Below are positions 2,202 to 61,307 of a stretch of 64,000 nucleotides of DNA, in pieces. A program made the translations under genes and the position numbers. Position 1 is the stretch's first letter. Each line of letters opens with the position of its first letter. Origin of the DNA: Halobacteriovorax marinus SJ (GTDB taxonomy: Bacteria; Bdellovibrionota; Bacteriovoracia; Bacteriovoracales; Bacteriovoracaceae); the NCBI RefSeq assembly GCF_000210915.2, contig NC_016620.1, positions 1,426,001-1,490,000 of the forward strand, in the 5' to 3' direction. Under the pieces are notes generated by a model. That model was not told the DNA's origin and made no database searches. It saw only the letters and a program-made list of their open reading frames with translations.

Positions 2202-2301
2202 AAATCCTTTTATCTATTTTTAATAGATATGGGCGGGATTATCAAGTTCCCTTAGGCCTAATTTTTTTAAAAGATATTTTAATTAAACCGATAAGATCAC
2301 T

Positions 2302-3534
2302 ATGATAGTGAGTCTCTATAAATATATAGTATTTTTCTTATGCCTAGTCTTAATTCCATTAAGAGCTAGTGCGATAGATATTAAGATTAGTGAAGACTTG
2401 CGAGAAGCCTATGATATGTATAGAGAGATCAAGAAGGCCGGTGGATTTGAATTAGTCGAAGTTCCTAAGGAGAGTGTAAGAGAGACCGCTCTATGTGTCT
2501 CTTGTCATAAGCTATCTGGTCTAACAAAAGAAGTGAATAAGGTACTCTTAGCACTTGCTGAAAACGAAGATAAATTAGATCCTTCCAAGAGAACAGTAGA
2601 GGAAGTAGAGGGGCTTAGCGCTCTCTACCACTACACTTTATCTGAAGGAGATTTCTTTAAAGAGAGTGTTTGTGAGAGATTCGATGATTCTCATAATAGA
2701 GAATTCGATGAGAATATTGACTTTAGTAGGGCCCATATTCTCGCTTCTAATGAAATTCCCATCGCAAACTTAAACTCCTTTCATCTTCGCGATGGTAAGA
2801 AGAGAACTTTCTTCTATAAGGCCAAGGGCGAAGAAGATCTCTATATCAGAATTGATGTTCACGACCAAGAAAAGGCAAGAATCACTTATTACAAATTAAA
2901 TACTGTTGCTGCCTCTGGTTCTAATGGCGCAGGAAGTAGTGTCGCCCAGGAGCCTGCTCGTAAGAAAAAGAAAAGGGAGAGCTGGAGTCTATGGACAGGT
3001 AGTAGTGAGGATGATGAACCACAAACTGAAAGTGAGTCTCATATAAGTTATGGCGCAGGAGTTTCTATTGAACACAAAGATCACTTGCCGCGCAAGCTGA
3101 CTCTTATAAAGGGAAATTCATTTACAACTCTAGGGAGTGCTCTTGGAGTAAAGACAAGTACAGAGCTTAGTACCAAAGAGCAAGTCGCCTCAATTAGTTT
3201 GAGCTCCAGTAAGGGTGATGACTACGCTAAGTTAGAATTAGATAAGGATGTTTTAGAATTACAAGTCCCTACTAAAGTAGATATTCTTGATAGTGGGCTT
3301 AAGCTTGAGACAGTCTTTTCTATGAACTCAAACGAGGAGCAAGAAGTTTCTTTTAGTCTCGCGGGAGAGCGCAGGGCCAGCACAAGTCTTATTCTTCGCC
3401 GAGATGAGAGAGGAAACTCAGGCACTCTGGCAAGGACTCAGAGATTTGGAGAGTCACAGTCTTTAAGTGTTCAATTCACTGGCGGTGACTCTAGGTCTAA
3501 TGAAGCGTGGATTCGCTATGAATTAGCCTTTTAG
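2302..3534 (+). CDS. Secreted protein with one CXXCH motif, family unknown
   Basis: A 410-residue exported protein. Residues 1-24 form a signal peptide ending RASA. A single CVSCH motif at residues 65-69 is the pattern for covalent heme c attachment, though one motif alone is not proof. A basic/Ser-rich linker (about 205-245) separates the N-terminal part from a C-terminal half rich in alternating polar/hydrophobic strands that ends in ...RYELAF, resembling an outer-membrane barrel or a beta-helix. I know no named family. The 3' end overlaps the convergent NfeD-type gene by 12 bases. Function is unknown; a heme-bearing envelope protein is one possibility. Confidence 0.75.
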   Translation: MIVSLYKYIVFFLCLVLIPLRASAIDIKISEDLREAYDMYREIKKAGGFELVEVPKESVRETALCVSCHKLSGLTKEVNKVLLALAENEDKLDPSKRTVEEVEGLSALYHYTLSEGDFFKESVCERFDDSHNREFDENIDFSRAHILASNEIPIANLNSFHLRDGKKRTFFYKAKGEEDLYIRIDVHDQEKARITYYKLNTVAASGSNGAGSSVAQEPARKKKKRESWSLWTGSSEDDEPQTESESHISYGAGVSIEHKDHLPRKLTLIKGNSFTTLGSALGVKTSTELSTKEQVASISLSSSKGDDYAKLELDKDVLELQVPTKVDILDSGLKLETVFSMNSNEEQEVSFSLAGERRASTSLILRRDERGNSGTLARTQRFGESQSLSVQFTGGDSRSNEAWIRYELAF

Positions 3535-21508: not shown

Positions 21509-22831
21509 TTGAATATTATCAGTGGATTTTCAAAGCTCACTAAGCTTGAAAAGATAAACTACCTAGTAGAAAACTTCCTGGAAGGAAGCCGTTTCTCAAA
21601 AGAAAAAATTAAAAGCTTCTGGCATGATAATGCTCTCGAACAAAAAGTCTTCGACGACTTTTCTGAAAATACAATAACTAACTTCTATGCACCATATGGT
21701 GTTGTTCCAAATTTCTTACTCAATGGAAAAATCCACTGTATTCCAATGGTGATTGAAGAGTCATCTGTTGTTGCAGCAAGTGCTAAGGCCGCAAAGTTTT
21801 GGCTGGACCGTGGTGGCTTTAAGGCCAGTGTGGTTTCAACTATTAAAGTTGGTCAAGTTCACTTTATTTGGAAAGGTGAGAGTGCGCAGTTGTATTCATT
21901 CTTTAATGAAGTTAAGAGCGAGCTCATTGAGAGTGTATCTCCACTCGTTCAAAATATGAAGAAGCGTGGTGGTGGACTGCTTTCACTTGAGCTTAAAGAT
22001 TGCACTGACCTTGAAGAGGGTTACTATCAATTTCACGGTGAGTTTGAAACATGTGATGCCATGGGCGCTAACTTTATTAATAGTGTTCTCGAAGCTATTG
22101 GAAAGAAGTGGCAGGAGTTCATCTCTCTCAATAATTCTTTTGAACAAGAGCAGAGAGATGTCCAAATTGTTATGTGTATCCTCTCTAACTACACACCTAA
22201 GTGTTTAGTTAAAGCTTGGGTTGAGTGCGATATTAATGAACTTAATGACTCTGGTCTAGGAATGGAGCCAAGTGAGTTTGCAAATAAATTTGCTCGCGCA
22301 GTAAGAATTGCTCAAAAAGATGTGGGACGTGCAGTCACTCACAATAAAGGAATCTTCAACGGAATTGATGCCGTTGTTTTAGCTACAGGAAATGACTTTA
22401 GGGCCATTGAAGCCTGCGGTCATGCTTATGCTGCCAGAGATGGTCAGTATAGAAGTCTAAGTAATTGTAGTATTGAAAATGGAAAGTTTAAATTTGAAAT
22501 AGAAATACCTCTCGCTCTAGGGACAGTTGGTGGCCTAACGTCACTTCACCCAATGTCTAAAATATCACTAGATATGCTAGGCAACCCAAATGCTAGAGAG
22601 TTAATGATGATTACAGCGGCTCTAGGTCTTGCGCAAAACTTTGGCGCAGTGAGATCTTTAGTTACTACTGGGATTCAAAAAGGACATATGAAGATGCACT
22701 TGATGAATATCCTCAATCATCTTGAGGCCAACGATCAAGAGCGCGAACTCGCTAGAAAAGAGTTTGAAACACAAGTGATCTCTTTTAATAGTGTGAGAGA
22801 CTTTATTGCGGGATTAAGGAATTATCAGTGA
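21509..22831 (+). CDS. Hydroxymethylglutaryl-CoA reductase, class II
   Basis: A 440-residue HMG-CoA reductase of the bacterial class II. It contains EESSVVAASAKAAKFW (catalytic Glu), DAMGAN, the LATGNDFRA segment, and C-terminal GHMKMH with the catalytic His. In this operon it should work in the biosynthetic direction, reducing HMG-CoA to mevalonate. The start is a TTG at 21509, preceded by AAGGGG six bases away; no in-frame ATG occurs for about 80 codons. It follows fni by 11 bases and overlaps the next start by 4 (GTGA). Confidence 0.94.
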   Translation: MNIISGFSKLTKLEKINYLVENFLEGSRFSKEKIKSFWHDNALEQKVFDDFSENTITNFYAPYGVVPNFLLNGKIHCIPMVIEESSVVAASAKAAKFWLDRGGFKASVVSTIKVGQVHFIWKGESAQLYSFFNEVKSELIESVSPLVQNMKKRGGGLLSLELKDCTDLEEGYYQFHGEFETCDAMGANFINSVLEAIGKKWQEFISLNNSFEQEQRDVQIVMCILSNYTPKCLVKAWVECDINELNDSGLGMEPSEFANKFARAVRIAQKDVGRAVTHNKGIFNGIDAVVLATGNDFRAIEACGHAYAARDGQYRSLSNCSIENGKFKFEIEIPLALGTVGGLTSLHPMSKISLDMLGNPNARELMMITAALGLAQNFGAVRSLVTTGIQKGHMKMHLMNILNHLEANDQERELARKEFETQVISFNSVRDFIAGLRNYQ

Positions 22832-23862
22832 TTATAGAAAATAGAGAACCAGAGTTTATTAGAGAAATTAAGTCTAATAAGACATTAGTTCAAAAAAATA
22901 ACGATCATATCTTCTATGGTCATGGAAAACTTCTACTAACTGGAGAGTACTTTGTTTTAGATGGAGCAAAGTCTTTGGCGTTACCAACAACTGTAGGTCA
23001 GTCACTCTCTGTTAAATATTCTCCTTCTTTTTCTCCTAAGCTCTATTGGAAGAGTTTTGATGTGGCCGGAAATCTGTGGTTTGAGACAATCTATGAATTT
23101 TGGAGATTTGAAATTACGAAAGAGAATCCTTCGCCTGAAGAGTTAGTTCTTCAAAAAGTTCTAAGACAGGCCCGCAAACAAAATCCTCACTTTCTAAGAG
23201 ATGATATTGATGTTCATGTTGAAACTCACCTTGGTTTCCCGATTGAGTGGGGGCTAGGTTCTAGTTCAACTCTCGTGCATAATATGGCCCAGTGGGCGTA
23301 TATTAGTCCATTTGAGCTTCAATTTGAGACTTATGGTGGTTCTGGATACGATGTGGCCTGCGCTCAGTCAGAAGGTCCAATCTTCTACTCTAAAAATACT
23401 AATGGGCCAAAGTGGTCACCAACTATATTCGATCCTAAGTTTTCTGATAACCTCTACTTTGTATATAGAGGAAAGAAGCAAGACTCTAGAAAGGCCATAG
23501 AATATTACAATAGTCTAAGACCAATTGATCCAGGCATTATTCTAAGTATCTCAGATATTACTAATGAAATCTCTAAGACAAATTCACTTAAAGAGTTTGA
23601 GTTCCTTATTGGAGCACACGAGAAAATAATTGGTAAAACTCTTGATCTACGCCCAGTAAAAGATGAACTCTTTTCAAACTTCTGGGGAGAAGTGAAGTCT
23701 CTTGGAGCATGGGGTGGAGACTTTGTTCTGGTGACAAGTGATAGATCGTCTACAGAGACTAAGAAGTACTTTAACGATAAAGGATATGATGTATTCATTC
23801 CTTATAATGATTTAATTTTAAAGACAGAGAAGAAAGACCTAACGAATGAATACCTACATTAG
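22828..23862 (+). CDS. GHMP kinase of the GYDIA type, probable mevalonate-pathway kinase
   Basis: A 344-residue GHMP-superfamily kinase. It shows GHGKLLLTGEYFVL near the start, the ATP loop EWGLGSSSTLVHNMAQWA, and YGGSGYDVACA, the variant of the GYDIA motif known from Flavobacteria-type kinases that sit in mevalonate operons. Since a mevalonate kinase and a diphosphomevalonate decarboxylase are also encoded here, it most likely fills the phosphomevalonate kinase step. That assignment is by elimination. The GTG start has AAGGA seven bases before it and overlaps the HMG-CoA reductase stop. Its end overlaps the next gene by 17 bases. Confidence 0.8.
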   Translation: MIIENREPEFIREIKSNKTLVQKNNDHIFYGHGKLLLTGEYFVLDGAKSLALPTTVGQSLSVKYSPSFSPKLYWKSFDVAGNLWFETIYEFWRFEITKENPSPEELVLQKVLRQARKQNPHFLRDDIDVHVETHLGFPIEWGLGSSSTLVHNMAQWAYISPFELQFETYGGSGYDVACAQSEGPIFYSKNTNGPKWSPTIFDPKFSDNLYFVYRGKKQDSRKAIEYYNSLRPIDPGIILSISDITNEISKTNSLKEFEFLIGAHEKIIGKTLDLRPVKDELFSNFWGEVKSLGAWGGDFVLVTSDRSSTETKKYFNDKGYDVFIPYNDLILKTEKKDLTNEYLH

Positions 23863-24934
23863 AAATTATAGTAAGAATGAGTTAATTGAAGATACTGGTA
23901 GAATTTCGTGGACATCACCATCTAATATTGCCCTTATAAAGTACTGGGGAAAGTATGGTCACCAGCTTCCTTGCAATACATCTATCAGCTTTACTTTAAA
24001 TGAGTCTAAAACAACGATGGACTTCTCTTGGAGTTCAAAAGACACTCCAAGTGATGAGATCGTTTTAGATTTCTATTTTGAAAATAAGAAAAACCAATTA
24101 TTCGAAGATAAGATTAGGGCCTTTCTAGAAAAGAATAGAGAACTCTTTCCTATGCTTAAATTTTTAAATTTAGAAATAGAGTCGACGAATTCCTTTCCTC
24201 ATTCGGCCGGAATAGCTTCTAGTGCTTCGAGTATGTCAGCACTTGCTCTAGGTCTTTGTTCTATTGAGAATCAGGCATTTGATCTCGATATATGTGAAGC
24301 AGATTTAATTCAAAAGGCAACTTATGTTGCAAGACTTGCTTCTGGTAGTGCTTCAAGGTCTGTATTTCCAGAGGTTGCTAGTTGGGGAGAAAACACTCTA
24401 ACATCAATTAAATCCAGTGATGAGCTAGCTGCTCCTGTAGAAGGAGTTCACGAAGTTTTTAAAACTTATAGAGACTCTATCGTCATTGTCGATGGTGGTG
24501 AGAAAGCGGTGAGTTCTAGAGCTGGCCATGCTCTTATGGAGGCGCATCCTTATCGTGAGGAGCGTTTTAAAAGGGCCAATGAATTAGTCGAAACTCTCTA
24601 CAATATTTTGAAGAGTGGCGATACGAAGTCTTTTTGCGACCTCGTTGAAACAGAGGCCCTTGAGTTACATGGGCTTATGATGAACTCTAATCCAAGCTTC
24701 ATTCTTATGAAGCCGAATACTTTAGCAGTAATTGAAAAGATTAGAGAATTTAGAAAAGAGAGTGGACTTGATCTTTGTTTCACTCTTGATGCTGGACCAA
24801 ATGTTCATATTCTCTATCCACAAAGTATAGAAGAAGAAGTTCAGAAATTTCTTTCAAGCGAAATTAAACCGTTGGCCCAAAATGGATTGATCATTCATGA
24901 TAGAGTTGGGCAAGGGCCTGAAAGGTTTCTATAA
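23846..24934 (+). CDS. mvaD: Diphosphomevalonate decarboxylase
   Basis: A 362-residue enzyme that converts diphosphomevalonate to IPP with ATP. Diagnostic segments are SPSNIALIKYWGK, NSFPHSAGIASSASSMSALAL (ATP loop), ASGSASRSVF, and FTLDAGPNVHIL with the catalytic Asp. The length is slightly longer than the yeast/bacterial norm because of a charged insert near residues 60-90. It starts inside the end of the upstream kinase gene and is followed directly by mevalonate kinase. Confidence 0.95.
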   Translation: MNTYIRNYSKNELIEDTGRISWTSPSNIALIKYWGKYGHQLPCNTSISFTLNESKTTMDFSWSSKDTPSDEIVLDFYFENKKNQLFEDKIRAFLEKNRELFPMLKFLNLEIESTNSFPHSAGIASSASSMSALALGLCSIENQAFDLDICEADLIQKATYVARLASGSASRSVFPEVASWGENTLTSIKSSDELAAPVEGVHEVFKTYRDSIVIVDGGEKAVSSRAGHALMEAHPYREERFKRANELVETLYNILKSGDTKSFCDLVETEALELHGLMMNSNPSFILMKPNTLAVIEKIREFRKESGLDLCFTLDAGPNVHILYPQSIEEEVQKFLSSEIKPLAQNGLIIHDRVGQGPERFL

Positions 24935-25837
24935 ATGCGCTCTTTCTATTCTAAAGTTCTACTCTTTGGTGAGTATTCAATAATTAGAAATTCAATGGGA
25001 CTTGCTGTTCCTTATCAACTATTTGAAGGAAAGTTAACTTTCCCAAGAGAGAAGAAAGACCGTTTTGATAGTGAGCTTAAGGCCTTCTGCCAGTACTTGA
25101 AGAATCTGGATACGAGAGGTGAGCTACTCTGTTCATTTGATCTTTCAAGTTTTGAATTTGATATAGGTCAAGGGCTTTACTTTGACTCATCTATCCCTCA
25201 GGGTTATGGAGTGGGTAGCTCTGGAGCTGTGGTCGCTGCAATTTTTGAAAACTACGCACTCTGTGAAGCAGATCAAAGAGATAACCTAGATTATCTTAAA
25301 AATGTTTTCTCACAGATGGAGTCTCATTTTCATGGCTCAAGTAGTGGCTTTGATCCTCTAATCAGCTTTCTAGATAGCCCAATTCTCATCTCTGAATCTA
25401 GGGAGTATCAGAAAGTCGATATTGAGAAAAACTCTGGAGACGGAGCAATTTTTCTCTTAAATACTGGTCGTCCAAGAAGAACGGAGCCTCTGGTAAATCT
25501 CTTTCTAGAAAAGTGTAAGGCCGCTTCTTTTGAGAACCTCTGTGACAATGTTCTTGCACCTATCACTAATAATTGTATCGAGGCCTTTATTACAAATGAT
25601 AAAGAGAGTCTATTTGAGTTCTTTAGAGAGTTATCAGATTTTCAATTTAGACACTTTGGTCCGATGATTCCAAACCTCTATAGTGACTTATGGAAGACGG
25701 GTCTTAAGCATGAAAATTTCTATTTGAAGCTATGTGGTGCCGGTGGTGGTGGCTTCTTACTTGGGATGACCATGAATTTAAAAGAGGCGATGAAAGAGCT
25801 TGGCCCTTATGAAATTCGCCCCCTTTATAGATTCTAA
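24935..25837 (+). CDS. Mevalonate kinase
   Basis: A 300-residue GHMP kinase that phosphorylates mevalonate. It has SKVLLFGEYSII at the N-terminus, the phosphate loop SSIPQGYGVGSSGAVVAAIF, ESHFHGSSSGFDPLIS (the mevalonate-kinase-like HG.SSGfDp motif), and C-terminal CGAGGGGFLLG. The ATG begins right after the mvaD stop (TAA-ATG), so it is last in a tight operon. The convergent enoyl-CoA hydratase-like gene ends one base away, with no terminator visible between. Confidence 0.88.
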   Translation: MRSFYSKVLLFGEYSIIRNSMGLAVPYQLFEGKLTFPREKKDRFDSELKAFCQYLKNLDTRGELLCSFDLSSFEFDIGQGLYFDSSIPQGYGVGSSGAVVAAIFENYALCEADQRDNLDYLKNVFSQMESHFHGSSSGFDPLISFLDSPILISESREYQKVDIEKNSGDGAIFLLNTGRPRRTEPLVNLFLEKCKAASFENLCDNVLAPITNNCIEAFITNDKESLFEFFRELSDFQFRHFGPMIPNLYSDLWKTGLKHENFYLKLCGAGGGGFLLGMTMNLKEAMKELGPYEIRPLYRF

Positions 25838-26821: not shown

Positions 26822-27394
26822 CTAGCTCGATTCTAGGAGAGATTGAAGGTCTTCATATAATTCCCGATCTTGAATGTCGGACTTTGAAGGTGATATTTGT
26901 GTTTTCTCAATGGCCTTCTTTCTAAGTTTTAAGATTTTAAGATCGTCGTTAAGAGCAGTGACGAGCTTTTTATTTTTATAATATTGTATTTCAAAGTTTG
27001 AACCGTGGTAGGCGCTAGGGTTATCTCTGATATTAACAATGACGCCCACTTTCTTCTTCTCATAAGCAGGGTCTCTATAAAGGCGAAGATGTCCTCTAAT
27101 AAGACTTAAGAGACGTACTCCATCAGAGTTAGACTTTCTCAAAATAACCTGTGTATTTGGTGCGAGGATGACGGTACCAATAACTTCATCATTGAAATCA
27201 ATGACTGCACTTCCATCTCTTGCTGTTGTAATAACCTCGTTGATGGCCACAGGGGTTTGTGTGGTGACTTTTCTAATATCATTTCTTACTTTGGAGTATT
27301 TTAATGTGTGACCTTGTAGAGGGGAGACATAGATCTCTGCGTTTGTGATATTAACTAGTGTTAGAAAGAGAAGTGATAGAGCTACTTTTACGAT
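26822..27394 (-). CDS. FecR-like secreted protein without a standard start codon
   Basis: The frame from 26822 reads open for 190 codons up to an ATC at 27394. It encodes a signal peptide (IVKVALSLLFLTLVNITNA), then a FecR-like beta domain (VITTARDGSAVIDFNDEVIG, APNTQVIL, LIRGHLRLY) and a helical tail. The first ATG/GTG/TTG in frame is GTG at 27250, which would remove the export signal. The ATC overlaps the stop of the upstream PilZ-GAF-AAA gene, with AGAAGG just before it. A rare start codon, a -1 frameshift from the upstream gene, or a sequence error would each explain it. The upstream gene is likely a functional partner. Confidence 0.6.
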   Translation of the reverse strand: MVKVALSLLFLTLVNITNAEIYVSPLQGHTLKYSKVRNDIRKVTTQTPVAINEVITTARDGSAVIDFNDEVIGTVILAPNTQVILRKSNSDGVRLLSLIRGHLRLYRDPAYEKKKVGVIVNIRDNPSAYHGSNFEIQYYKNKKLVTALNDDLKILKLRKKAIEKTQISPSKSDIQDRELYEDLQSLLESS

Positions 27395-29094
27395 ACCTTC
27401 TTCTCTCTTGTTTCAGACTTTATCATCTTCATGATCTTGTCTGGGTGTATACTTGTATCAGCACTGAAGATTAATCTCTCTTCTATATTTTTGAAACCAT
27501 GTATTTCTTCTTTTTCAATATCTATCACTTCACAGTCATGACTCGTGAGCATAAATGTCTTCTTAATGACTTTCTCAAGTTCAGTGATATTACCCGGCCA
27601 ATAATGTGAGATGATATATTGCATACTTTCAGGGCTTAATTCTCTTGGAGCAAGACCTCTCTTTACGCACTCAATTCTAATAAAGTAATTGGCAATAGTA
27701 AGTATATCATCTCTTCTATTTCTAAGAGGAGTGAGGTGGAATCTAGATTGTGTGAGCTTCTTATAGAGTTGCTTGTGAAAGAGGCCACTTTTAATTTCAT
27801 AAATTAGATCTTTGCAACTAGTCGTTATAAACTTACAGTCTTGAAATTGAATCCAATTATATAGTCTAGACTGATCACTTGAAGATAAAGAATCGATATT
27901 CTTAAAAATTAGTGTTTGTTCGCTAGAGAAATTACTTGTAGAAGATAATATCTTTTCTAGGTGAGCAGGGTCTTTGCAATTAAAAATATCTTTCTCACTA
28001 TTATTTGATAAGTACTTCGCAAAGAATTCCTTACCAAGCCCTTTCTCTCCAACAATGAAGACATTGGTCTTACCATATTTTAATTTCTTTAAAGTTGTTC
28101 GGATTGCAGATGATTTCTGTGTTGAACCAAAGTAGATAAATGAATCTTTTAACTCAGGGTTTAAGTGAGCAATGCTCGTTGACTTAGATTTTACTATATA
28201 GTTCAAGAATCGCTTTGCAATTACAAGCGAGAGGAAGTGTCCCATATTCTCATCTATAATAGAGAATTGACCGCCCTTTTTGTTATTAAATTGTAGGACA
28301 CCAATACACTTTCTTTCTTTATTTAATAGCGGTAGGCATAGGGTATTGTTAAGAGTGAATTTATCTTCATCTCTCTCTTTTGGCTCTTTTAAAAAAGTAT
28401 TGATACATCTAGAAGTCGTAAAGCACTTACCAAGTTCTCCCTTATTAAAGGAGTTGTCTTTTATATGGGTGCAGTTGGAGCTGTGATAGATGTTTTCTAG
28501 TTTATCTTTTTCTAAATTAATTTTCCAAACTCTAACCTCCTCGCAGTGAAGTAGGTGAGCACATTCATCTAGTAGAGATGAAATATCAGAGCGACTAAAT
28601 TCTTTATAGAGAACATTTAATAGACCAAATAACTCTACTCCATCATCAACATTAATTTCTCTAACGGAGAGTGAGGACTTAATGAGAAAGTCCTTAAGCT
28701 TCTTGCCTGAGAAGCCAGCAATATAATCAGTGATGAAATACTTTAATTCCGATTCTTCTGATTGGTTAATTAATTCGACACCGTAATTATATGTTTGTTC
28801 CTCAGAATTTTCTTGAAAGCTTCGAATGATAAAGCCTTCAACTTCAAGGTCCCATTTATTGAAAATCTTCTTTGTGAAGATCTCTATTTTTACTTTTGTT
28901 CCAATAGGTATATGAATATTTGATTTGAAAGAGAGACTAAAGAGATTGAAGTCAATGAGTCTCGTATCTTGTCCAAGTGTTTGTCTATTTCCATTTTGAT
29001 GTAGCAGAGAGATTCTAAGGAAAATCTTATCATTTTGCTCTGAACGTACTCTGAATGATCTGTAGAATTTGAAATTTTTTAATCCATTACCCAT
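27388..29094 (-). CDS. PilZ-like/GAF/decayed sigma-54-activator AAA+ protein
   Basis: A 568-residue cytoplasmic protein in three parts: a PilZ-like beta domain (about 5-130, starting FYRSFRV and ending YNYGVELI), a GAF domain (about 165-305, with LCLPLLNKERKCIGVLQFNN), and an AAA+ region related to sigma-54 activators (about 325-520). Walker A GEKGLGKEF and the LTPLRNRRDDIL and YWPGNITELEKVI segments are kept. The GAFTGA loop is deleted and Walker B reads TLIFKNIDSL, without the acidic pair. No C-terminal DNA-binding helix-turn-helix is seen. It probably does not remodel sigma-54 holoenzyme; a sensor or scaffold role is inferred. Divergent from a paralogue. Confidence 0.75.
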   Translation of the reverse strand: MGNGLKNFKFYRSFRVRSEQNDKIFLRISLLHQNGNRQTLGQDTRLIDFNLFSLSFKSNIHIPIGTKVKIEIFTKKIFNKWDLEVEGFIIRSFQENSEEQTYNYGVELINQSEESELKYFITDYIAGFSGKKLKDFLIKSSLSVREINVDDGVELFGLLNVLYKEFSRSDISSLLDECAHLLHCEEVRVWKINLEKDKLENIYHSSNCTHIKDNSFNKGELGKCFTTSRCINTFLKEPKERDEDKFTLNNTLCLPLLNKERKCIGVLQFNNKKGGQFSIIDENMGHFLSLVIAKRFLNYIVKSKSTSIAHLNPELKDSFIYFGSTQKSSAIRTTLKKLKYGKTNVFIVGEKGLGKEFFAKYLSNNSEKDIFNCKDPAHLEKILSSTSNFSSEQTLIFKNIDSLSSSDQSRLYNWIQFQDCKFITTSCKDLIYEIKSGLFHKQLYKKLTQSRFHLTPLRNRRDDILTIANYFIRIECVKRGLAPRELSPESMQYIISHYWPGNITELEKVIKKTFMLTSHDCEVIDIEKEEIHGFKNIEERLIFSADTSIHPDKIMKMIKSETREKKVS

Positions 29095-29183
29095 AAGTAT
29101 TTTATCGGTTTTTATCTAATAGAGTTTAAGAAAAAAGAATATTTTGCCGATAATATTAAAGATTAGTAGGGGAATAGAAATCT

Positions 29184-31049
29184 ATGAATAATATTGTAAA
29201 ACTTAAGTCATATCGCTCGTTTAGGATACCTGTTTCGGATAGTGATAAGATAAGTATGCAAATTTTAAAGTATAATTCTAAGACAGTAGATTACCCTAGC
29301 TCAGCTTGGAAGCTCTCAAATGTCAGTCTATCTGGGGTTGCTTTTGAATCTAGTTTGAAATTTGAACCAGATGGAGTCTTGGAGTTAGAGTTCAAGTTTA
29401 AAGGTCATACTTTTCACGTATGCTCTAAAGTAGCGAGATCTATTCCAAATTATAATGTTTTTGGAGAGGTCGAGAGCTTTATCTATGGTGTTGAGTTCTT
29501 CACTGAGGATCAAGACAATGGAAAGGAATTTATCTCTTCTTATATCTCAAGCTTTAGTACTAGAAGACTGAAGAAGCATCTCATTAATCTCTTAATCAAT
29601 GAGAGTCGAATTAATACTTTCTCAGATGGACAGAAGCTCTCTCTTTCCTTGTCGTTATTCCTTGATATGAAGCAGTTTAAAGGGATAGGAGATTTTCTAA
29701 GGGTTGTTTTTAAAGAATGTTGTCGCTTCTCTCACTCTGATATTGGAAATATTTATTTGTTAAATATGAAAAAAGATTCTCTATATCTCTACGATATGGA
29801 GAAAGAAGAATTTCATAGGTATTCAGGATTAGAGAATCAGGTTTTGGCCAATGATATTCTAGATCAAAAATCTTTTAAGATTATTCGATCAAATGGAAAA
29901 TTAAATTTAGAAAACTTCCCCTCAACGCCAATGAGTGAAGATGGAGTTGAATTCTCTAGTGCACTATATTTTCCTTTATTGGACTCTCAAGGTAAGTGTT
30001 GTGGGTTCTTTGAATTTATTAATTTTGATAAGAATAAGAGTTTTAGCGAGAGAGATCTCTCAGCAATTGAACTCTTTAGTAATGTATTTACTCTATGTTT
30101 TGGCGATCTTGATAAGACTGAGTTTGTTTCTCACTTAGAAGATAATATTGGATACGTAGATAATGCAAAGTTAATTGGAAGAAGTAAGGGCATTGATGTT
30201 GTTGATGAGTTCATACATGGACAAGGTGCTCATGTAGAGAATGTTCTTATTCAGGGTAGTAACGGAGTAGGAAAGATTCATATTGGAAAGAGCATTCATC
30301 ATAGAAGCGCTACTAGTAATATGCCTATAGGAACTCTACTTTGTGAAACAATTGTTGATAGAGCTGACCTAGAGCTCCAACTCATAGGCGATGAAGAGCA
30401 TGTTGGAAAGCTTGAGCTTTATTCTGGAGGTTCTCTAATTATTCATGAACCCTCAGCTCTGAGTAAGTCTTGCCAAGACTTCCTATTTGAAACTCTCTCT
30501 AAGAGATCTGATGTTAGATTAATTACAACAACAACGAAGTCTTTAATTGATAAGTGCGATAATAATCTATTTAGTAGGGACTTATATGAATTTCTCTCTA
30601 GAAACTTTATATCAGTTCCCGACTTATCTGAGAGAAAAGAGGATATTGGGCCTCTAGTGAATCACTTTCTAGATCTACTATGCTCTCAGTACGGTCTTCC
30701 TTCTAAACGTGTGTCCAATTATGTCATGAGAACTTTTGAGTCTTATTCATGGCCTGGAAATATTGAAGAGTTGAAGGTGACGATAGAGAGACTTATTAAT
30801 TACTATCCTTACTTAAGATACTTAGATGAATTGCCTGAGAAAGAGTTTCCAATCATTGGAGAATATCCAAGGCAAAGTGGTATTGTAAAAGAGGTTATGC
30901 TAGATGCCACTCATGAGTTAGATCTTACAGCTGTCAAAGAGGGGATCATTACTAATTATTGCAAGGCCCATGGTTTAACGCGAGAAGAGTATGACAATCT
31001 CTATGCTAAAGAAGAGGAAATTACAGAGAATCAACAACTTGCTTCTTAA
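29184..31049 (+). CDS. Paralogous PilZ-like/GAF/decayed sigma-54-activator AAA+ protein
   Basis: A 621-residue protein with the same order as its divergent neighbour: PilZ-like (about 5-125, YRSFRIP...YGVEFF), GAF (about 165-300, ALYFPLLDSQGKCCGFFEFI), then AAA+ (about 325-545). Walker A is GSNGVGKIH. The GAFTGA position is replaced by GDEEHVGKLELYSGG, and Walker B is SLIIHEP, keeping Glu but not Asp. ERKEDIGPLVNHFL and YSWPGNIEELK are retained. A Fis-like C-terminal helix pair may survive in degenerate form near residues 580-605. The start has GGGGA upstream. The two proteins may form a complex; that is inference. Confidence 0.75.
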   Translation: MNNIVKLKSYRSFRIPVSDSDKISMQILKYNSKTVDYPSSAWKLSNVSLSGVAFESSLKFEPDGVLELEFKFKGHTFHVCSKVARSIPNYNVFGEVESFIYGVEFFTEDQDNGKEFISSYISSFSTRRLKKHLINLLINESRINTFSDGQKLSLSLSLFLDMKQFKGIGDFLRVVFKECCRFSHSDIGNIYLLNMKKDSLYLYDMEKEEFHRYSGLENQVLANDILDQKSFKIIRSNGKLNLENFPSTPMSEDGVEFSSALYFPLLDSQGKCCGFFEFINFDKNKSFSERDLSAIELFSNVFTLCFGDLDKTEFVSHLEDNIGYVDNAKLIGRSKGIDVVDEFIHGQGAHVENVLIQGSNGVGKIHIGKSIHHRSATSNMPIGTLLCETIVDRADLELQLIGDEEHVGKLELYSGGSLIIHEPSALSKSCQDFLFETLSKRSDVRLITTTTKSLIDKCDNNLFSRDLYEFLSRNFISVPDLSERKEDIGPLVNHFLDLLCSQYGLPSKRVSNYVMRTFESYSWPGNIEELKVTIERLINYYPYLRYLDELPEKEFPIIGEYPRQSGIVKEVMLDATHELDLTAVKEGIITNYCKAHGLTREEYDNLYAKEEEITENQQLAS

Positions 31050-60242: not shown

Positions 60243-60278
60243 TTATGTTAGAGTTTGCCAAACTTTAATGGTCGAAAT

Positions 60279-61307
60279 ATGTCAGAAAATAAAAAAGATA
60301 AAAAGCACAGCGATACAGTTGTTGAGGTACTAAGTACTGAAGATCTTCTTTCAGAAAATGAGAGTAAGACGCTTGCAGATATTGAGATCTCCTTAAAAAA
60401 ATCTAATGAAGATGCCCAAGACCTTCTTCCCGCACTAACGAGTTCTAAAGATCTCGTTAAGTATGATAGTAAAATTGGTGATCCTCTTACGGCATATCTT
60501 AGAGAGATATCCAAGTATGAGCTTCTAACTATTGAAGAGGAGAGAGAGCTGACTCAGAAGTTAGTTGAGACAGGTGATATCGAAGTTGCTAAGAAATTAG
60601 TGGCCGCCAACTTAAGGTTAGTCGTTAAAATTGCCATGGAGTATAGAAGTTCATTTCAAAATGTTATGGACCTTATTCAAGAAGGAAATATTGGTCTCAT
60701 GAAGGCCGTCTCAAAATATGATCCAGATAAAGGCGCTAAGCTTTCGTACTATGCGAGCTGGTGGATAAAGTCCTATATCTTAAAGTATATTCTCGATAAT
60801 TTTCGCTTGGTTAAGATTGGAACAACTAATGAGCAGAAGAAACTCTTCTATAATCTCATGAAAGAGAAAGATCGCTTGGCCAAGCAGGGGATAGAACCAG
60901 ATCATAAATTGCTCTCTGAGAACCTTGGGGTTTCTGAAAAGGCAGTTGCACTTATGGATGGGCGAATGTCTAGCTCGGGTGGAGAACTAAGTTTAGAGAC
61001 ACCACTTGGACATGACTCTGGCTCGGGTGTACTTTCGGATATTCTTGTAGATCAGGATGAGAGTGATATTTCTGAAAAAATTGCAGATGCTCAAGGGCTT
61101 GAGATTCTCCAAGAAAATCTTAGAGACTTTGTTTCAGGACTTAAAGAGAGAGATAGAGATATCTTTAAAAAACGGTTACTTAGCGAAGTTCCTCCCTCCC
61201 TTCAAAATATTGCAGATGAATACGGTGTGTCACGAGAGAGAATACGCCAGATCGAAGAGCGACTCCTAAAGAATTTAAAGGTTTACATGTCTGAGTTTAT
61301 TAGATAA
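60279..61307 (+). CDS. rpoH: RNA polymerase sigma-32 (heat-shock) factor
   Basis: A 342-residue sigma-70-family factor of the RpoH type. Region 1.2/2.1 begins DPLTAYLREISKYELLT. Region 2.2-2.4 shows LRLVVKIAMEYRS, DLIQEGNIGLMKAV, YASWWIKSYILKYI. The RpoH box TNEQKKLFYNLM, region 3, and the region 4 helix-turn-helix LQNIADEYGVSRERIRQIEERLLKNLK follow. An N-terminal extension of about 70 residues is acidic and longer than in E. coli. The ATG at 60279 is chosen over a TTG at 60255; neither has a strong ribosome site. Confidence 0.9.
   Translation: MSENKKDKKHSDTVVEVLSTEDLLSENESKTLADIEISLKKSNEDAQDLLPALTSSKDLVKYDSKIGDPLTAYLREISKYELLTIEEERELTQKLVETGDIEVAKKLVAANLRLVVKIAMEYRSSFQNVMDLIQEGNIGLMKAVSKYDPDKGAKLSYYASWWIKSYILKYILDNFRLVKIGTTNEQKKLFYNLMKEKDRLAKQGIEPDHKLLSENLGVSEKAVALMDGRMSSSGGELSLETPLGHDSGSGVLSDILVDQDESDISEKIADAQGLEILQENLRDFVSGLKERDRDIFKKRLLSEVPPSLQNIADEYGVSRERIRQIEERLLKNLKVYMSEFIR

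Follow-up and report, generated by a model that had tools for sequence, protein, structure and literature searches.

Divergent PilZ-GAF-pseudo-AAA+ paralogues in Bacteriovoracia: candidate non-catalytic partner proteins with predicted attack-phase promoters

Why should a predatory bacterium keep, back to back, two proteins that resemble sigma-54 activators and seem to have lost both the machinery of catalysis and a means of binding DNA? The question is raised by two genes, here called A and B, in the stretch of 64,000 nucleotides of the Halobacteriovorax marinus SJ genome that was analysed (the window). An earlier note, made from the letters of this DNA, had described them as divergent paralogues across 89 bases, and both the arrangement and the two reading frames are as it gave them (Table 1); the 89 bases are those between the start codons.

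Table 1. Features of the A-B locus. Positions are those of the window.
Feature	Position	Strand	Remarks
Small exported FecR-related reading frame	26822..27394	-	Immediately follows A; no stop codon up to 27394, start not certain
Gene A, 568 aa	27388..29094	-	PilZ-like - GAF - pseudo-AAA+ (sigma-54-activator type), without HTH; ends ...EKKVS
C-terminal tail of A	27391..27408	-	REKKVS, ssrA-like end
AAA+ core and lid of A	27535..28131	-	Residues 322-520
GAF domain of A	28204..28650	-	About residues 149-297; NKFDE-type motif present (NK-x4-F-x3-DE)
PilZ-like domain of A	28717..29073	-	About residues 8-126, by alignment with C; DxSxxG gone (DFNLFSLSF)
Predicted FliA/sigma-28 promoter of A	29103..29129	-	TTAAA-N16-CCGATA, one mismatch
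Predicted FliA/sigma-28 promoter of B	29126..29152	+	TTAAG-N16-CCGATA, exact consensus
Gene B, 621 aa	29184..31049	+	PilZ-like - GAF - pseudo-AAA+, degenerate helical C-terminal end; ends ...QQLAS
PilZ-like domain of B	29205..29549	+	About residues 8-122; NxSxSG retained, RxxxR without first Arg
GAF domain of B	29685..30098	+	About residues 168-305; NKFDE motif disrupted
AAA+ core and lid of B	30171..30803	+	Residues 330-540
C-terminal tail of B	31032..31046	+	QQLAS, ssrA-like end

The AAA+ domains of A and B are of the sigma-54-activator type, as the note had said. Pfam Sigma54_activ_2 matches A with an E-value of 1.9e-42 and B with 3.5e-11, AAA_lid_14 matches them with 1.3e-13 and 2.2e-15, and the model of B fits the NtrC1 ATPase domain with Z 26.2 and an rmsd of 2.0 over 225 residues; the E-values and this fold match rule out a chance resemblance. 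The two domains proposed to lie in front of the AAA+ domain were found by way of homologues, since profile searches of the window's A and B gave no match to PilZ or GAF at E<1. PilZ exceeds its curated cut-off in two B orthologues (26.5 and 29.0 bits), GAF does so in an A orthologue (30.4 bits) and a B orthologue (23.1 bits), and both are matched over the cut-off in C, a further paralogue in the same genome. Across the family a PilZ match is present in 43 and a GAF match in 48 of 51 members. The PilZ fold of the window's own A and B is thus a putative one, assigned by homology only. The predicted structures of A and B (pLDDT 73 and 75, pTM 0.41 and 0.44) are reliable mainly in the AAA+ part, so that no domain arrangement is read from them, and the fold search, run with complete models, mostly reflects the AAA+ domain and is uninformative on PilZ or GAF.

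Motifs were compared by aligning A, B and C with three activators of this genome that carry GAFTGA. The absence of GAFTGA from both proteins, which had been noticed earlier, turns out to be a deletion of the entire loop, in C as well as in A and B. The damage to Walker B is also as described: the DE position reads KN in A, where both acids are gone, and HE in B, where the Asp is gone. In addition, A, B and C have replacements at both arginine-finger positions (FREDL..R) and at the sensor II Arg (GN[IV]R). Walker A is retained in the window's A (GEKGLGKE) and B (GSNGVGK); the full GxxGxGK pattern is present in 14/14 B, 40/40 C and 9/13 A proteins, with the Lys present in all 13 of the latter, and in A of one genus (g35) the P-loop is lost as well. 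The Fis-type helix-turn-helix (HTH) is lost in 13/13 A proteins and absent or degenerate in the 14 B proteins, in keeping with the claim that neither has a clear DNA-binding end.

Whose decay is this? C, the third full-length paralogue in the genome (locus L001, 3646-5586), aligns with A and B over almost all of their length and has the order PilZ-GAF-AAA+ followed by a Fis-type HTH. C-type matches were found in 122 of the 129 genomes of the class, and in 73/73 of the high-quality ones; the other 240 phylum genomes searched gave no match at E<=1e-60. Among the named relatives of C are those from Halobacteriovorax marinus and from marine Bacteriovorax isolates. The GAFTGA loop is missing from all of the 40 C proteins aligned, Walker A is intact in all 40, and just four have Asp as the first Walker B acid. 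Their HTH is near-invariant (40/40), with an invariant core, SREALRKK. C is thus a predicted DNA-binding regulator that belongs to the core of Bacteriovoracia. The earlier note had asked whether relatives with intact GAFTGA and Walker B might reveal a local decay event; with the loop absent from C (40/40) and from all relatives, decay in this genome only is ruled out. Its picture of decay within the pair needs revision, however. C has most of the same catalytic losses, which therefore predate the pair or arose in parallel with it, and the loss that is the pair's own, when set against C, is that of the HTH. Without an HTH, A and B cannot act at promoters alone as C-like regulators could. As a separate observation, C is followed in most genomes, in a survey of 40 C loci, by cdaA (diadenylate cyclase, PF02457, E 2.3e-41), a ybbR-like gene and glmM (the genes after C in L001 lie at 2332-3138 and 1404-2330), a neighbourhood that hints at a c-di-AMP link for C. 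Extension of such a link to A and B was considered and set aside, as linkage to A and B is lacking.

A sensory role for the domains in front of the AAA+ domain has also to be weighed, and a response to c-di-GMP had been suggested. The first Arg of the PilZ RxxxR motif is Tyr, Phe, Leu or His throughout A, B and C, and canonical c-di-GMP binding by any of the three is for this reason unlikely. The second PilZ motif, DxSxxG, is kept in C and takes the form NxSxxG in B; A of the window's genus no longer has it. The GAF domains are similar to cyclic-nucleotide GAFs in a PDB profile search, and an NKFDE-type motif is present in 39/40 C and 6/13 A proteins, so that a cyclic-nucleotide ligand is possible for C and some A proteins. 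A and B might then be second-messenger receptors, in which PilZ takes c-di-GMP or GAF a cyclic nucleotide and the AAA+ domain is no more than a dimerisation platform, a reading that would give a reason for the retention of both folds. It is nevertheless improbable, given the incomplete RxxxR, the loss of DxSxxG from some A proteins and the absence of the NKFDE motif from all 14 B proteins. NKFDE-like motifs are, moreover, common among bacterial GAF domains.

The distribution of the pair indicates how long it has been kept. Divergent A-B pairs occur in 14 genomes from four genera, A being cut by a contig end in one of them (G048), and the fifth genus, g35, adds three genomes, two with the pair complete and one with an A close to the edge of a contig. 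This makes 17 genomes and five genera, always with the divergent arrangement; the pair is absent from most genera. Its site is constant, with an enoyl-CoA hydratase gene on one side and trxB on the other. Of the 73 genomes that lack the pair and carry both flanking genes on one contig, 46 have them separated by less than 400 bp. In the tree, A, B and C each form a single clade (support 100/99, 100/100 and 100/99, respectively), the order of genera is identical inside the A and B clades, and the fifth genus falls within both. The constant site implies that the pair either arrived there a single time and was then inherited, or has been lost from other genomes, and the tree is compatible with both histories. 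A and B are best seen as HTH-less pseudo-ATPase paralogues of C that form an old pair, passed on by vertical descent. Near this site the window also carries mevalonate-pathway genes, at 21509-25837, for HMG-CoA reductase, diphosphomevalonate decarboxylase and a GHMP kinase.

Both A and B are under purifying selection. Between close relatives pN is 0.10-0.17 against a saturated pS of 0.78-0.82; pN and pS are given in place of dN/dS because the synonymous sites are saturated. The survey of relatives thereby bears out the parallel retention that had been proposed, and retention under purifying selection of two proteins with a non-catalytic AAA+ domain makes a non-enzymatic role likely. Once C is allowed for, a correlation between the A and B distances remains (partial r 0.68, with 0/5000 permutations as high). 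This fits a joint function, but could stem from genome-wide rate changes that C misses. In one genome (G047, locus L081) both proteins sit on very long branches, as if changing fast together.

A and B evolve some four to five times faster than C, with mean distances of 2.3 and 2.9 against 0.57. Such rates, together with the loss of the HTH, the loss of the P-loop in A of g35, the long branches in G047 and the absence of the pair from most genera, could mean that A and B are duplicates of C on a slow path to loss under relaxed selection, kept by chance or for some minor residual role. Against this, the full-length frames are intact in nearly all of the 17 genomes across the five genera, pN is far below the saturated pS, and the promoters and C-terminal tails discussed below have been retained while the surrounding sequence turned over. 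Slow death of the pair is quite improbable on this balance. Kept as a pair in five genera and preceded by attack-phase-type promoters, A and B are probably non-enzymatic partners and not decaying genes.

The promoters are predicted from sequence, with a consensus from Bdellovibrio, which belongs to a different class from Bacteriovoracia. The attack-phase promoters of that organism have the form TTAAG-N16-CCGATA, of the FliA (sigma-28) type, in 92/140 cases (Karunker et al. 2013, PMC3627812). The exact consensus was found once in the 64-kb window, ahead of B. The -35 boxes of the A and B promoters overlap, and since overlapping boxes can hardly hold two RNA polymerases simultaneously, competition between the promoters is possible. 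Such sites stand on both strands in each of the 13 spacers, which come from four genera. The 26 sites have 42 mismatches between them; in 500 shuffles the total averaged 115 and never fell below 104. At one mismatch or none, a site lies upstream of 14/14 B, 22/39 C and 5/13 A genes (11/13 A genes at two mismatches or fewer), against 13/223 other genes with an intergenic leader. In the fifth genus the B site is a poor match or missing (5 and 2 mismatches), and the A site has 2-3 mismatches. FliA itself is encoded in the genome (TIGR02479, 269.6 bits, cut-off 189.6).

A scan of the genome (G000:C1) with TAAA-N14-16-CCGATAA found 21 sites, against 5 in the reversed control, an excess that raises the possibility of a mappable FliA regulon. 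Many of these sites precede genes for exported or uncharacterised proteins, and a gene for a PilB/GspE-like ATPase also follows such a site. Elsewhere in the window, an attack-phase-type promoter with one mismatch (2267-2293, plus strand) precedes a gene whose product is exported, and a sigma-70-family factor of 350 aa, distinct from FliA, is encoded at 60255-61307 on the plus strand.

A second conserved feature lies at the other end of the genes. The proteins end in -[AV][AS] in 40/40 C, 10/13 A and 12/14 B cases, or 62/67 together, counts that come from related proteins and hence are not independent observations, against 8/450 other open reading frames; the remaining C-terminal region is not conserved between the three groups. 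C ends in Ala in 39/40 cases, as -AA or -VA, and A and B mostly end in -AS or -VS. The tmRNA tag of this genome, AESNFAPAMAA, ends in AMAA, and the main signal for ClpXP is a terminal Ala-Ala (PMC7652416). This resemblance suggests regulated proteolysis, with the Ser ends of A and B leaving room for doubt; that the tails of A and B serve as degrons has a little under an even chance.

The genes that follow A bear on a rather different reading, in which the pair would work at the envelope and not in transcription. The earlier note had raised a possible link of the pair to a FecR-like gene downstream. The small exported gene after A in the window has no Pfam or NCBIfam match, to FecR or otherwise, but its counterpart at the equivalent position in another genus is a FecR match (PF04773, 25.2 bits). 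An exported FecR-related gene follows A in three genera and is absent in two of the five, and a link to the pair is plausible. In g35 and g44, A is followed by a LolA_like gene (PF17131, E 3.9e-55 and 1.8e-49) and then by an exported protein, which is of FecR type (PF04773) in one of the two; the loci with the LolA-like gene are L250 (2270-5105), L251, L253 and L076 (5157-8043). A and B could accordingly be imagined as cytoplasmic sensor-scaffolds for these exported LolA-like or FecR-like neighbours, with C functionally unrelated, and proteins without a remaining DNA-binding end would suit such a task. However, A directly precedes the enoyl-CoA hydratase gene in g3 and g16, the neighbour of B is not conserved, and no membrane segment is evident in A or B, so that an envelope role is unlikely.

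The reading preferred here, with a probability of roughly 0.55, is that A and B are attack-phase, non-catalytic regulators of the partner type. They would be HTH-less partners derived within a core family that was already non-catalytic, and placed under predicted attack-phase control. From their anatomy, ancestry, genomic site, selection, promoter motifs and tails a mechanism can be sketched, in which expression, the heteromeric partner, the ligand and degradation are the conditional parts. Sigma-28 (FliA) RNA polymerase would transcribe A and B in the free-swimming attack phase. The proteins would bind nucleotide at most, without turnover, and would work through protein contact by their PilZ, GAF and AAA+ surfaces, with each other, with C, or with both. 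Assembly with C would tune the action of C at its DNA sites; that C is in fact the partner is a tentative proposal, with odds somewhat against it. On leaving the attack phase, ClpXP may clear A and B by way of their ssrA-like tails. In its most complete form, which is a speculative one and unlikely as a whole, A, B and C would constitute a predator-specific three-part switch, a DNA-binding pseudo-ATPase tuned by two partners that are made from overlapping FliA promoters and degraded through their tails at prey entry.

Judged by sequence, a branch of the NtrC/sigma-54-activator family has here lost catalysis and contact with sigma-54, either before a whole bacterial class spread or while it did so. 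One copy (C) persists throughout that class as a predicted DNA-binding regulator, and two more (A and B) have been retained, on the preferred reading, as HTH-less partners. The predicted attack-phase promoters make A and B testable candidates for control of the switch from attack to growth in Bacteriovoracia. Literature searches that paired PilZ with GAFTGA, or joined PilZ and GAF with Bdellovibrionota, turned up no account of a PilZ-GAF-pseudo-AAA+ family.

The family can be set beside several known systems. The FliA attack-phase regulon of Bdellovibrio (PMC3627812) has the same TTAAG-N16-CCGATA promoter, and a FliA homologue is present in both organisms; the case here differs in having two overlapping divergent promoters for a pair of paralogues, which are predicted and lie in another class. 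The short C-terminus recalls the Ala-type end of ssrA-like ClpXP degrons in part: C ends rather like the tmRNA tag, whereas A and B mostly end in Ser; for these proteins degradation is a prediction.

The family is also related to the sigma-54 activators, or bacterial enhancer-binding proteins, such as NtrC, NifA, ZraR and NorR, whose AAA+ core and lid it matches in both profile and fold. NifA and NorR also have an N-terminal sensory GAF domain, as do A, B and C, and C shares the Fis-type HTH. In contrast to these activators, A, B and C have the GAFTGA loop deleted, Walker B altered, and the arginine fingers and sensor II Arg replaced, and A and B have no HTH. Loss of GAFTGA has a precedent in the NtrC-type proteins VpsR, Rhodobacter capsulatus NtrC and Caulobacter NtrC, which lack it and are active at sigma-70 promoters (PMC10274813). 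VpsR came near the top in both the sequence and the fold searches. These three proteins keep the HTH and a receiver domain, whereas A and B carry PilZ-GAF in front, have no HTH and show further catalytic losses. It is C that comes closest to the VpsR class, combining the L1 deletion with a DNA-binding end, but with PilZ-GAF domains of its own.
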